This document shows, in pieces, positions 3,401 through 6,798 of a stretch of DNA of 7,544 nucleotides. The DNA comes from a bacterium (GTDB lineage: Bacteria > UBA9089 > CG2-30-40-21 > SBAY01). Made by a program: the position numbers and the translations under genes. The notes beneath the pieces were generated by a model. It did not search any database and was not told the DNA's origin. It saw nothing but the letters and a program-made list of their open reading frames with translations. Location: positions 1 to 7,544 of the forward strand of contig JBFLYA010000182.1 of assembly GCA_040757115.1 (NCBI GenBank). Reading direction: 5' to 3'. Positions within the stretch are counted from its first letter, which is position 1, and each line of letters starts with the position of its first letter.

Positions 3401-3498
3401 TGGTAATTGGTAATTGGTAACTGGTAATTGGTTAGATGGCTTCGTCCTGAGCTCAGCCAAACAGTATTTAATTACCATTTGCCAATCACCAATTACCA
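3401..3498. repeat. TGGTAAT heptamer array with 29-bp inverted arms before dnaK
   Basis: Four tandem units (TGGTAAT, TGGTAAT, TGGTAAC, TGGTAAT) followed by a partial one fill 3401-3435. The arm 3470-3498 is the reverse complement of 3401-3429 at 26 of 29 positions, and one of the three differences is a G-U pair in the minus-strand RNA. The 40-base loop includes the perfect palindrome CTGAGCTCAG (3447-3456) with flanking TGGCT/AGCCA. The structure ends 22 nt before the dnaK ATG, immediately outside the AGGAGG site. Confidence 0.85.
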
Positions 3499-3515
3499 GA
3501 ATTAAATTCCGTGCG

Positions 3516-4094
3516 TTATTTGTTCAACACGACACCAGGGTTAGTCACGGCTACCTGTGCTGGTCTGATAACTCGATTATTAAATAAGTAGCCTTTTCTT
3601 AATTCCTGAGCAACTGTATGTTCAGGATATTCATCAGATTGTATTTGCATTAATGCCTCATGGATATTTGGGTCAAAAGGCTTGCCAATGGTTTCTATTT
3701 CTACAAGTCCATTTTTTACAAGGACATCTTCTAATTGTTTATAAATTAATTCCATCCCCTGTAAAAAAGCCTCTAAATTATGGGTTTGGTGTTCCTCGTT
3801 CAATGCCCGGTTGAAACTATCCATTACCGGCAGTAATTCACATATTAACCTTTCATTAGCTAATTTTATAAATTCTGCCCTTTGTTTTTCTTCACGCTTT
3901 TTATAGTTTTCAAATTCTGCTTTAAGTCGGCGAAGATGGTCTAAATATTCATCAGCAAGGATTTTCTGTTTTTCAAACTCAGCTAACTCTTGTTTTGTAA
4001 TACTTACTTTTTCTTCAACCTTCTCAATCTCAATATGTTCTTCTGGTTGTGTAATAATTTTTTTCTTTGACAAATTTTTCCCCTCTCTAATCAT
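3516..4094 (-). CDS. grpE: Protein GrpE, nucleotide exchange factor for DnaK
   Basis: GrpE releases ADP from DnaK and works as a dimer. The 192-residue product has a charged N-terminus, a long helix likely to form the dimer coiled coil (about 35-85, with LDHLRRLKAEFENYKKR at 51-67), and the C-terminal beta domain with the signature RKGY (166-169) and RVIRPAQVAV (174-183). Length fits the family. The start is uncertain. The ATG at 4094 has only a weak ribosome-binding site, whereas the in-frame TTG at 4073 (codon 8, protein beginning LSKKKIITQ) follows a purine-rich GAGAGGGG at 4080-4087 with a spacing of six bases. The seven-residue difference does not touch any conserved part. It lies 24 bp after the fmdB-type gene and ahead of dnaK, and is presumably cotranscribed with both. 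Confidence 0.97.
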   Translation of the reverse strand: MIREGKNLSKKKIITQPEEHIEIEKVEEKVSITKQELAEFEKQKILADEYLDHLRRLKAEFENYKKREEKQRAEFIKLANERLICELLPVMDSFNRALNEEHQTHNLEAFLQGMELIYKQLEDVLVKNGLVEIETIGKPFDPNIHEALMQIQSDEYPEHTVAQELRKGYLFNNRVIRPAQVAVTNPGVVLNK

Positions 4095-4118
4095 ACCACA
4101 TTTTTAAATTAAATTCAA

Positions 4119-4406
4119 CTATTTTTTCGTGGTGGAGACTTTATCTTTTTTAGAATCAGGCTTTTTAGGTTCAGGTTCTTTGTAGCCTATTTCTTTTTTT
4201 TCCGCCTCGACATAACTTTTGCTTTTCTGAACATAATCTGTGGCATAGAAGCCTGAGCCTTTAAATAGAAATCCTGCTCCTCCTGTAAATACCCTTTTAA
4301 CCTCTGCTTTACATTCAGGGCATTTTTTTAGAGGTTCATCTGTAATTTTTTGAAATTCCTCAAATCTAAATCCACATTTTAGGCATTCATATTCATAAGT
4401 TGGCAT
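4119..4406 (-). CDS. FmdB-family small zinc-ribbon protein
   Basis: This 95-residue protein has the N-terminal layout of the FmdB/CxxC_CxxC_SSSS putative regulatory family: MPTYEYECLKCG at the start, a Cys pair at 8/11 and a second CPEC pair at 29/32, together a single zinc ribbon. A Gly/Phe-rich link follows (GGAGFLFKGSGFYATDY, 42-58), then a Lys/Glu/Pro-rich, probably disordered tail. The family was named after a regulator of formamidase in Methylophilus, but most members have no proven function, and I do not infer regulation of chaperones. The ATG start has AGGTGA (4414-4419) seven bases upstream. It sits just after the groEL terminator and 24 bp before grpE, so it probably opens the second transcription unit. 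A chaperone-linked role is possible from position only. Confidence 0.9.
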   Translation of the reverse strand: MPTYEYECLKCGFRFEEFQKITDEPLKKCPECKAEVKRVFTGGAGFLFKGSGFYATDYVQKSKSYVEAEKKEIGYKEPEPKKPDSKKDKVSTTKK

Positions 4407-4427
4407 TTTCGCATCACCTACTTAAGT

Positions 4428-4485
4428 TGGTAATTGGTAATTGGTAACTGGTAACTAAATAGTATTCACCCCTTACCAATCACCA
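4428..4485. repeat. TGGTAAT heptamer array with inverted arm before the fmdB-type gene
   Basis: Four tandem units, TGGTAAT twice then TGGTAAC twice, occupy 4428-4455. An inverted arm TTACCAATCACCA (4473-4485) complements the first 13 bases with one mismatch, which is a G-U pair in the minus-strand RNA. The array ends 21 nt before the ATG, and the far arm abuts the T tract of the groEL terminator. Confidence 0.8.
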
Positions 4486-4522: not shown

Positions 4523-4551
4523 AAAATTTTTTCTCACTGCTCACTACTTAC

Positions 4552-6183
4552 TTAATACATATCCCCGTATCCGCCGCCTGGTGGCATAGGAGGCATATCT
4601 TTTTTCTTTTCAGGGATATCCGTAACCAATGCTTCTGTGGTCAACATTAATCCTGCAATCGAAGTTGCATTTTGCAGGGCACAGCGAGTTACTTTTGCCG
4701 GGTCAATCACACCTGCCTGGACTAAATCAGTGAATTTATCTTCTGAGGCATCGTAGCCAAGATTAGGGTCTTTCTCCAACCTAATCTTCTCGGCGACTAT
4801 CGAACCTTCTAATCCGGCATTTTCTGCAATTTGTCTTAAAGGTTCTTCTAATGCCCGTCTAACAATCATTGCACCGACTTTTTCATCCCCTTCTAATTTA
4901 AGTTTATCAACCACCTGTTGTGCACGCAGCAACACTACTCCGCCACCCGGGATAATTCCTTCTTCAACTGCGGCTCTGGTAGCATGGAGGGCATCTTCAA
5001 CTCGTGCCTTTTTCTCTTTCATTTCGGTTTCAGTTGCCGCACCAACCTTAACTACTGCGACGCCGCCAGCTAATTTAGCTAATCTTTCCTGAAGTTTCTC
5101 ACGGTCATAGTCAGAGGTCGTTTCATCAATTTGTAATTTAATCTGTGATATTCTGGCTTTAATATCAGCCGTATCACCTGCACCTTCAATAATCGTTGTA
5201 TTATCCTTATCAATCGTTATCCTTTTAGCCTGGCCTAAATCGTCGAGTTTGAGATTTTCTAATTTAATCCCTAATTCTTCGACAACAACCCTGCCACCTG
5301 TAAGAATGGCAATATCTTCTAACATTGCCTTGCGTCTATCGCCAAAGCCTGGTGCCTTTACCGCCGCACATCGCAATGTGCCACGAATCTTATTCACAAC
5401 TAAAGTCGCTAATGCCTCACCTTCTACATCCTCAGAAATGATTAAAAATGGTTTCCCTTTTTGAACTATCTTCTCAAGGATAGGTAAAAGGTCTTTCATC
5501 ACGGATATTTTTTTCTCATGAATCAAGATATATGGGTCTTCAAGGACGCATTCCATTCGTTCGGCATCAGTTACAAAATATGGTGATAAATAGCCTTTAT
5601 CAAACTGCATCCCTTCGACGACATCCAATTCCGTGGTCATTGTTTTTGATTCTTCGACGGTGATAACGCCATCTTTACCAACCTTTTCCATCGCATCGGC
5701 AATTAAATTGCCAATAGCGGCATCCATATGGGCAGAAATAGTGGCTACCTGTGCCATTTCCTTTTTCTCTTTAACCTCTTTGGCGTTTTTCTTAATCTCT
5801 TCTACCACGGCCTCAGTTGCTTTTTCTATCCCTCGTTTCAAAGCCATTGGATTAGCCCCAGCGGCAATATTCTTAGTCCCTTCACGGAAAATTGCCTGAG
5901 CTAAAACCGTTGCCGTTGTTGTTCCGTCACCTGCCACATCTGATGTTTTCGACGCTACCTCCCTTACCATTTGTGCCCCCATATTCTCATACGCGTTTTC
6001 TAATTCAATCTCTTTTGCTACGGTTACGCCATCGCAGGTAATCGTTGGTGAACCAAATTTCTTGTCTAAAACCACATTTCTACCTTTAGGACCTAATGTC
6101 ACTTTAACGACATTGGCTAAGGTATCCACCCCTTTAAGGGTATTTTTTCTTGCCTCTTCTCCAAAACATAGCTGTTTAGCCAT
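4552..6183 (-). CDS. groEL: Chaperonin GroEL (Cpn60, Hsp60)
   Basis: GroEL forms the double-ring ATP-driven folding chamber that is capped by GroES. The 543-residue product is full length. Visible family features are [12 protein letters not shown] near the N-terminus (30-41), the ATP-site GDGTTTAT (85-92, with the Asp that contacts magnesium at 86), the hinge and apical region, [21 protein letters not shown] (395-415, with the catalytic Asp at 397), and [18 protein letters not shown] (505-522). The extreme C-terminus is [14 protein letters not shown], so the usual run of Gly-Gly-Met repeats is replaced by a short Pro/Gly/Tyr tail. The ATG start has a full AAGGAGGT (6193-6200) nine bases upstream. 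It follows groES after a long 184-bp spacer and ends 29 bp before a strong terminator. Confidence 0.99.
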
Positions 6184-6206
6184 TTGTTTTATACCTCCTT
6201 ATCTTT

Positions 6207-6255
6207 TGGTAATTAGTAACTGGTGAATGGTAATTAGTCACCATTTAACCACTTA
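6207..6255. repeat. TGGTAAT-type heptamer array before groEL
   Basis: Five consecutive 7-bp units can be read on the plus strand: TGGTAAT, TAGTAAC, TGGTGAA, TGGTAAT, TAGTCAC (6207-6241). Their 3' part can pair imperfectly with 6238-6255. On the minus-strand transcript the array ends 23 nt before the groEL ATG, just outside the ribosome-binding site. Confidence 0.75.
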
Positions 6256-6367
6256 CTTTTAATTTCGTGAAGCCCTATTGATTTTGCCTTGAGTCAAGTC
6301 TACAACTGAATTGTCGATTTCTGGATTTTTTTTAATTTACAATTCGCAATTTGCAATCATAAACTCC
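6256..6367. other. Rest of the long groES-groEL spacer
   Basis: This completes a 184-bp gap where groES and groEL are usually much closer. It contains a short run of heptamers AATTTAC, AATTCGC, AATTTGC (6334-6354) next to the groES stop and a perfect 11-bp palindrome CTTGAGTCAAG (6290-6300). I see no convincing promoter, terminator or small gene. Confidence 0.5.
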
Positions 6368-6655
6368 TTATTCGATAATCCCAAAAATATCATCTTCTCG
6401 CATAATGAGATATTCTTTGTCATCAAGTTTTACCTCTGTTCCGGCATATTTTCCAAAGAGAATCCTGTCTCCTGCCTTTACATCCAACGGTTTTATTTCA
6501 CCACTTTCTAATCTTTTCCCGGTTCCAACAGCAATTATCTTACCCTCCTGAGGTTTCTCTTTAGCCGTATCCGGGATGATAATTCCTCCCTTGACCTGTT
6601 CCTTTTCCTCCATTCTTTCAACTAACACTCTGTCTCCTAACGGTTTAAGTTTCAT
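6368..6655 (-). CDS. groES: Co-chaperonin GroES (Cpn10, Hsp10)
   Basis: GroES is the heptameric lid of the GroEL chamber. The 95-residue protein starts [14 protein letters not shown], has the mobile loop with the GroEL-contacting GGIIIPDT (23-30), and continues through AVGTGKR (42-48), [15 protein letters not shown] (61-75) and [14 protein letters not shown] to the end. It is complete and of normal length. I place the start at the ATG at 6653-6655. An in-frame TTG at 6659-6661 would add two residues but lies only three bases from AGGAGG (6665-6670), whereas the ATG lies nine bases from it. It is the first gene after the CIRCE-controlled promoter and is presumably cotranscribed with groEL. Confidence 0.98.
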
Positions 6656-6798
6656 TGTCAAATTCCTCCTTTCTTATTTTAATTTTGGATTTTGAATTGG
6701 TTTCAATTCACAATTTCCAATCCAGAATTTTAAATTTCCCTCCCATTTGATAATCTAACTTCCCTTTCTATTAATCACCCCCCTTAATTTATTCAAAA
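6656..6798 (-). promoter_or_regulatory. groES untranslated leader with degenerate heptamer inverted repeat
   Basis: Between CIRCE and groES lies the transcribed leader. AGGAGG at 6665-6670 is the groES ribosome-binding site. Further upstream, 6678-6735 is a decayed 7-bp repeat: TTGGATT and TTGAATT (6685-6698) face an inverted set (about 6702-6728) whose reverse complement reads CTGGATT, GGAAATT, GTGAATT, so a loose hairpin is possible. The part from 6741 to 6798 is C-rich on the plus strand, and I see no gene or known riboswitch in it. Confidence 0.5.

Follow-up and report, generated by a model that had tools for sequence, protein, structure and literature searches.

The window analysed here, a 7,544-nt stretch of DNA from an uncultured bacterium (contig JBFLYA010000182.1, C182 of the 4.32-Mb assembly GCA_040757115.1, hereafter G000), carries on its minus strand groES, groEL, an fmdB-type zinc-ribbon gene, grpE, dnaK and dnaJ. 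Tandem heptamer arrays lie in front of groEL, the fmdB-type gene and dnaK. These arrays are probably the stems of small non-autonomous mobile hairpin elements, inserted in one orientation at a fixed distance from pre-existing Shine-Dalgarno sequences. One family of such elements, termed family A, was analysed in G000 and in its close relative G001. Two further relatives, G002 and G003, were used for comparison, the last being a member of the sister genus.

Family A: anatomy, register and alleles

The groEL array is part of one copy of family A. Copies of this family begin with TAGGGCTTCACGAAATTA, continue with a variable number of heptamers and close with a constant right arm, AACTAATTACCATTCACCAGTTACCAATTACCA. 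They are non-coding, dispersed and about 70-100 bp long, with 67 alignments in G000 and 52 in G001. The two ends are unlike (left TAGGGCTTCACG, right TTACCA), and the hairpin is internal or lies toward the right side. Left arms vary between copies by whole heptamers (multiples of 7 nt), which indicates that arrays lengthen or shorten after insertion. Because the 5' arm varies in this manner, RNAalifold retrieved no consensus pairs from the family A alignment. The sister genus lacks this left end, and the viral collection gave two matches to it, neither with a family A body. The left end also heads a different repeat, after which comes an apparently truncated DUF559-type frame (G000 C46:13146, minus strand; L348, L349, L351).

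Position of family A relative to genes is strikingly uniform. Forty of the 49 distinct full-length copies have a called start codon within 40 nt. Of the other nine, four are tandem or expanded, two lie close to contig ends, and three possess a Shine-Dalgarno sequence with no called start nearby. The offset from TTACCA to GGAG could be scored in 37 copies with a called start, and it amounts to 7 nt in 33 of them, 6 nt in two and 8 nt in two. In the same 37 copies, variance of the distance from element to GGAG is 0.11, compared with 4.2 for the distance from element to start codon, which lies 16-35 nt away. Since the former distance is nearly constant and the latter variable, family A is in register with the Shine-Dalgarno sequence and not with the start codon. 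Orientation is identical in all resolvable copies.

Comparison of G000 with G001 revealed alleles with and without the element. Four loci (L243/C46, L242/C27, L235/C69 and L230/C6) carry family A in G001 and are empty in G000, with flanks about 97% identical; an automatic comparison recovered three of these four pairs again. When the flanks are rejoined, the empty allele is obtained with 0-1 nt duplicated, except for a three-T difference at C46. The Shine-Dalgarno sequence, including the variants ATGGAGG and TGGGAGG, is identical in occupied and empty alleles. Insertion of family A is scarless and takes place beside a pre-existing Shine-Dalgarno sequence. The preliminary description of this DNA had proposed, as one explanation of the arrays, that they were inserted at a set position with respect to the Shine-Dalgarno sequence, and both the GGAG register and the occupied/empty pairs support this.

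A comparable empty site exists for the copy in the window. Window coordinates written with two dots refer to the minus strand unless stated otherwise. The family A element of the groES-groEL spacer (TAGGGCTTCACGAAATTA...TTACCA) occupies 6205..6277, and GGAG starts 8 nt past its TTACCA. The groEL Shine-Dalgarno sequence AAGGAGG (6194..6200) and the called groEL gene (4552..6183, start codon at 6181-6183) follow. In G002 and G003 the element is absent and the same spacer measures 17 nt, with the Shine-Dalgarno sequence kept as in the window (L192/L193).

In relatives, the slot beside the Shine-Dalgarno sequence is often occupied by unrelated hairpins. At L239/C10, it is filled by family A in G001 and by an unrelated element in G000. 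The fmdB-type leader harbours four different elements in G000, G001, G002 and G003. In the dnaK leader, G002 and G003 have another hairpin and G001 has unrelated DNA; from the Shine-Dalgarno sequence onward this leader is nearly unchanged. In a 20-kb stretch of G003, several leaders hold hairpins that differ from those found at the same place in G002.

Heptamer arrays in the window and in the genome

As had been described previously, the window arrays at 3401, 4428 and 6207 are 22, 21 and 23 nt from the start codons of dnaK, the fmdB-type gene and groEL, respectively. Search of the window with a 14-mer heptamer query, TGGTAATTGGTAAT, tolerating up to three mismatches, yielded 18 matches versus 1.05 in shuffles. 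Both hairpin arms are present in the window arrays. Leaders were folded and z was calculated against 200 shuffles per leader. The dnaK and fmdB leaders gave z of -5.1 and -2.95, with none of 200 shuffles equally good, and the groEL leader was marginal (z -1.8). A more decayed heptamer inverted repeat had also been ascribed to groES (gene call, 6368..6655). A weak inverted repeat is indeed present in front of it (6681..6729, 19-nt arms, 79% complementary), but its fold resembles that of shuffled sequences (z -0.43, 69 of 200). The short spacers before grpE (24 nt) and dnaJ (58 nt) are devoid of arrays, in agreement with the preliminary description.

The hairpin before dnaK (gene call, 1453..3378, start codon at 3376-3378) spans 3401..3498 and is of a type designated A2, with heptamers as in family A and a different loop. 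GGAG starts 7 nt past its ACCA, within the Shine-Dalgarno sequence AAGGAGG (3389..3395). The stretch from there to the start codon is near-identical in G001, G002 and G003, and the upstream DNA differs. The fmdB-type gene (PF09723, 4119..4406, start codon at 4404-4406) is preceded by a putative ribosome-binding site TAGGTGA (4414..4420), assigned by its position, and by a hairpin at 4427..4486 that is recognisable by both arms and by folding. This spacer differs in all four genomes.

Genome-wide distribution of arrays was determined in a sample of about 36% of G000 (1.57 Mb, chiefly the longest contigs), in which 1,167 genes were called with a simple script of our own, without refinement. Periodicity of 7 bases is dominant: 238 arrays were detected at lag 7, versus 4 at lag 6 and 29 at lag 8, and a shuffled sample contained a single one. 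The heptamer units are numerous and include AATTACC, ACTCGGG, AAAGTAG and AACTATC. Called coding sequence contains 63 of the 238 arrays.

Distances to start codons were compared with those obtained when the same elements were placed at random within the same spacers (20,000 randomisations). Array edges were found 10-24 nt from a start codon in 45 cases versus 16.3 expected, and the maximum in all randomisations was 32. Edges at 25-59 nt are depleted (10 versus 27.9 expected). On the side of stop codons, the 10-24 nt bin holds 8 edges, with 16.4 expected. The offset of arrays from start codons is thus beyond coincidence. The preliminary description had stated that a missing peak at about 20-25 nt from starts, or equal abundance downstream of convergent genes, would make the offset a coincidence. 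The peak is present on the start side and there is none at stops, but convergent spacers do carry arrays, at about half the co-directional density (0.46 versus 0.88 per kb). The statement that every spacer over 100 bp has an array holds loosely in the window; in the genome sample, arrays occur in 191 of 557 spacers of at least 100 bp.

The positional preference is not restricted to one repeat or one genome. In G003, 12 of 22 array edges fall in the 10-24 nt interval (5.3 expected), and the heptamers are other ones, for example TTTTTAA and ACCGATT. In a test blind to repeat type, 46 of 519 leaders have an inverted repeat whose end lies 4-10 nt before the Shine-Dalgarno sequence, versus 8.7 in shuffles. 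With at most one mismatch, TGGTAATTGGTAAT occurs 361 times in G000, 979 times in G001 and 23-36 times in the sister genus, and elsewhere its counts are near control, which points to lineage-specific amplification. Among 80 dnaK loci from other bacteria, we found 20 arrays at lag 7 and at most two at any of lags 5, 6, 8, 9 and 10. The seven-base periodicity itself extends beyond this lineage.

Mechanism and competing explanations

Under the mobile-element reading, an enzyme acting in trans would insert family A, recognising the Shine-Dalgarno sequence or something bound to it, and slippage would produce the heptamer arrays. The host would tolerate such insertions, as the Shine-Dalgarno sequence and its spacing to the start codon remain intact and unpaired, and the hairpin would be a largely neutral leader. 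Predicted mean unpaired probability of the Shine-Dalgarno sequence hardly differs between leaders with the element (0.615) and without it (0.545), and no clear masking by the hairpin was seen, in line with a tolerated and largely neutral leader. By its anatomy, family A is closest to elements moved by single-strand transposition, as in the IS200/IS605 and REPIN groups. Scarless insertion, asymmetric ends and subterminal hairpins agree with IS200/IS605 elements; a target abutting one end does not occur in family A. Of the traits of miniature inverted-repeat transposable elements, family A is short, non-coding, dispersed and multicopy, but it lacks terminal inverted repeats and target-site duplication (0-1 nt in the four pairs).

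Several observations weigh against this reading. Y1 genes are present in the G000 genome, but none of the six Y1 transposase matches has family A ends on both sides. Exact search found no family A left end near four of the five other Y1 matches. On contig C28, a RAYT-like gene with an internal stop and its own GGGGACGCACAC ends has a degenerate copy of family A upstream of it. Left ends without family A bodies led to more family A copies, other hairpins and DUF559-like remnants, and to no transposase between matching ends. Further, about 3-5 variable bases separate the family A end from AAGGAGG, whereas Y1 elements usually abut their target directly. Some insertions are common to G000 and G001, so that independent events are fewer than family A copies. 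The dnaK and fmdB arrays of the window appear related to family A by heptamers, loop and position, and the family A left end is missing from them. Finally, sequence targeting alone fails to explain why all resolvable copies sit at gene starts. Of the 206 non-coding AAGGAGG sites in the genome sample, 69 lie away from called starts, and no resolvable family A copy was found at any of these. This absence may reflect a further cue at active starts, selection removing copies, or missed genes.

It is conceivable, with a fairly low probability, that the target is not defined by the letters AAGGAGG alone. It would then be a functional ribosome-binding site marked by its use, whether through the single-stranded DNA of an active gene, through the transcript or through the ribosome that initiates there. 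The leaders of this lineage would share a slot in which unrelated hairpins replace each other.

Rather unlikely, in our opinion, is that placement results from selection and not from targeting, in such a way that hairpins arise or insert anywhere and are kept beside the Shine-Dalgarno sequence where they are useful, as a barrier to translational coupling or in mRNA processing or stability. Refilling of the slot by unrelated hairpins in relatives would be expected if any hairpin helps there. Selection is also favoured by the location of every resolvable copy at a gene start despite other AAGGAGG sites, and by the clustering of inverted repeats, whatever their kind, at 0-20 nt ahead of the Shine-Dalgarno sequence. 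On the contrary, selection for a nearly symmetric hairpin would not call for a one-base register or a single orientation, and several genes have empty alleles between near-identical genomes. The preliminary description had considered a hairpin selected for mRNA processing, stability or heat-dependent translation. This finds no support, given the empty alleles, the scarcely altered predicted exposure of the Shine-Dalgarno sequence and the targets, which are not a heat-shock set. Genes downstream of family A, named by eye from their N-termini, include ftsZ, trpA, trpF, rpsH, rplU, rplI and yidC. As these are general housekeeping genes, a heat-specific role is unsupported. A canonical CIRCE (controlling inverted repeat of chaperone expression), the operator of the HrcA heat-shock system, lies upstream of groES (6799..6825, no strand assigned) and already accounts for classical HrcA control of this operon.

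Random insertion followed by a tolerance filter, with survivors only between the stop codon and the Shine-Dalgarno sequence in tight operons, is improbable. Element-free operon spacers are short, like the 17-nt groES-groEL spacer of G002 and G003, and the sole harmless place there would be next to the Shine-Dalgarno sequence. However, expected counts already assume random placement within the same spacers, and copies in roomy long and divergent spacers still lie against the Shine-Dalgarno sequence. Neither the one-base register nor the single orientation follows from random insertion.

A portable ribosome-binding site, in which the Shine-Dalgarno sequence is the terminal sequence of the element itself, would accord with the finding that AANNNAAGGAGG nearly always follows the right end of family A. 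We hold it to be very unlikely, since empty alleles already possess the same Shine-Dalgarno sequence, non-consensus variants included, and the three bases between element and Shine-Dalgarno sequence are host-like and variable. Slippage of heptamers in place with a coincidental offset has next to no probability: heptamer number does change in place (trpA, ftsZ, C58/L341), but the 18-nt left end and right arm are dispersed over tens of loci and the offset peak is far beyond chance. In its simple form, slippage in place is refuted by dispersed full-length copies and empty sites.

Known repeats and further observations

Tandem heptamers near genes have been described in other bacteria. In marine Beggiatoaceae, TAACTGA direct repeats are intergenic, mostly in one orientation and close upstream of start codons (MacGregor 2015, PMC4679880). 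As in our case, 7-base units precede unrelated genes, including essential ones, and underwent lineage-specific amplification. Beggiatoaceae repeats mostly end a few nt from the start, across the position where a ribosome-binding site is expected, and few of their spacers (about 10%) contain a Shine-Dalgarno sequence (PMC4679880). Here, in contrast, a retained Shine-Dalgarno sequence 7 nt away determines the register, inverted heptamers form hairpins, and insertion is evident from empty sites. Multicopy elements of Geobacter metallireducens form dispersed families of four to five tandem heptanucleotides and in this resemble our arrays. One family, class 3 (MTYCTGA), has paired strands; the elements are located between genes and, in another family, within genes. 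The accessible part of that report proposes binding sites or regulatory RNAs and describes no insertion mechanism, empty sites or Shine-Dalgarno register (PMC2700814).

Among palindromic repeats, REPINs are likewise short, extragenic and abundant, and a Y1 transposase presumably moves them in trans. A REPIN consists of two inverted REP (repetitive extragenic palindromic) sequences beside a RAYT gene (PMC3116915), whereas the ends of family A are unlike and no RAYT is linked to it. Comparable as well are the pneumococcal BOX, RUP and SPRITE repeats and the Correia and ERIC elements, which are short, structured and non-autonomous and occur in transcripts close to genes. Terminal inverted repeats and a duplicated target set BOX and RUP apart, and no fixed ribosome-binding-site register is described for them in the accessible text (PMC3049150).

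Open-licence literature, as far as its accessible parts go, provided no published example of insertion in register with the Shine-Dalgarno sequence or of such empty sites, which is weak evidence of their absence. Of mobile kinds, REPINs and the pneumococcal repeats are nearest to family A, which is probably akin to the known miniature palindromic repeats. Mycobacterial interspersed repetitive units (MIRUs) are small repeats of uniform orientation that occupy operon junctions close to start and stop codons. Their sequence and proposed target (DTGA) differ from those of family A. No literature on MIRU target sites was found among open-licence papers.

Mobile DNA usually damages a gene start beside which it lands. 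Family A adds a leader hairpin to essential genes and leaves the translation signal untouched. Its placement would amount to a rule by which a functional site common to most bacterial genes is targeted, and would explain why orthologous leaders in this lineage contain unrelated hairpins. It would also offer a testable account of the unexplained heptamer repeats of Beggiatoaceae, cyanobacteria and Geobacter, namely that they arose as the stems of mobile hairpins.

Rfam gave no match at gathering scores in the window and nothing relevant at four sample loci. A conserved extension of the A2 repeat (GTCGTGTTGAACAAATAACGCACGGAATT, 3499..3535) overlaps the 3' end of grpE (PF01025, 3516..4094). The grpE frame terminates within this dispersed repeat (GTCGTGTTGAACAAATAACGCACGG), from which it takes both its final residues, VVLNK, and the stop codon; grpE C-termini of relatives (L111/L112) differ from that of the window. 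In G001 (L352/L392, G001:C177), dnaK lacks both the preceding grpE and the family hairpin, and unrelated DNA joins a few bases from the same Shine-Dalgarno sequence. A TTTGATA heptamer array without predicted hairpin (z 0.25) lies downstream of dnaJ at 126-185. The frame at 6904-7368 has a weak match to IS1 transposase (PF03400, E 5e-4, under the curated cut-off) and is probably a remnant.

Elsewhere in G000, a type of chained hairpin elements with ends GAAAATAG...CTATTTTC, for which Rfam has no match, occurs on C23, C14, C46 and C47 (e.g. L063, L054). Its links are joined by TTTTCAGGAGAA and a small hairpin that varies between links with pairing kept (GAGTC/GACTC, GTCCAC/GTGGAC, GCCGAC/GTCGGC). 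A long frame at C77:13342-16199 (L050) comprises many alternating ACCAATT/TCCCGAG arrays, and TGGTAATTGGTAAT recurs in it every 190-300 bases or so. In-frame heptamer arrays are also found in further long reading frames of G000, on C30, C43 and C44.

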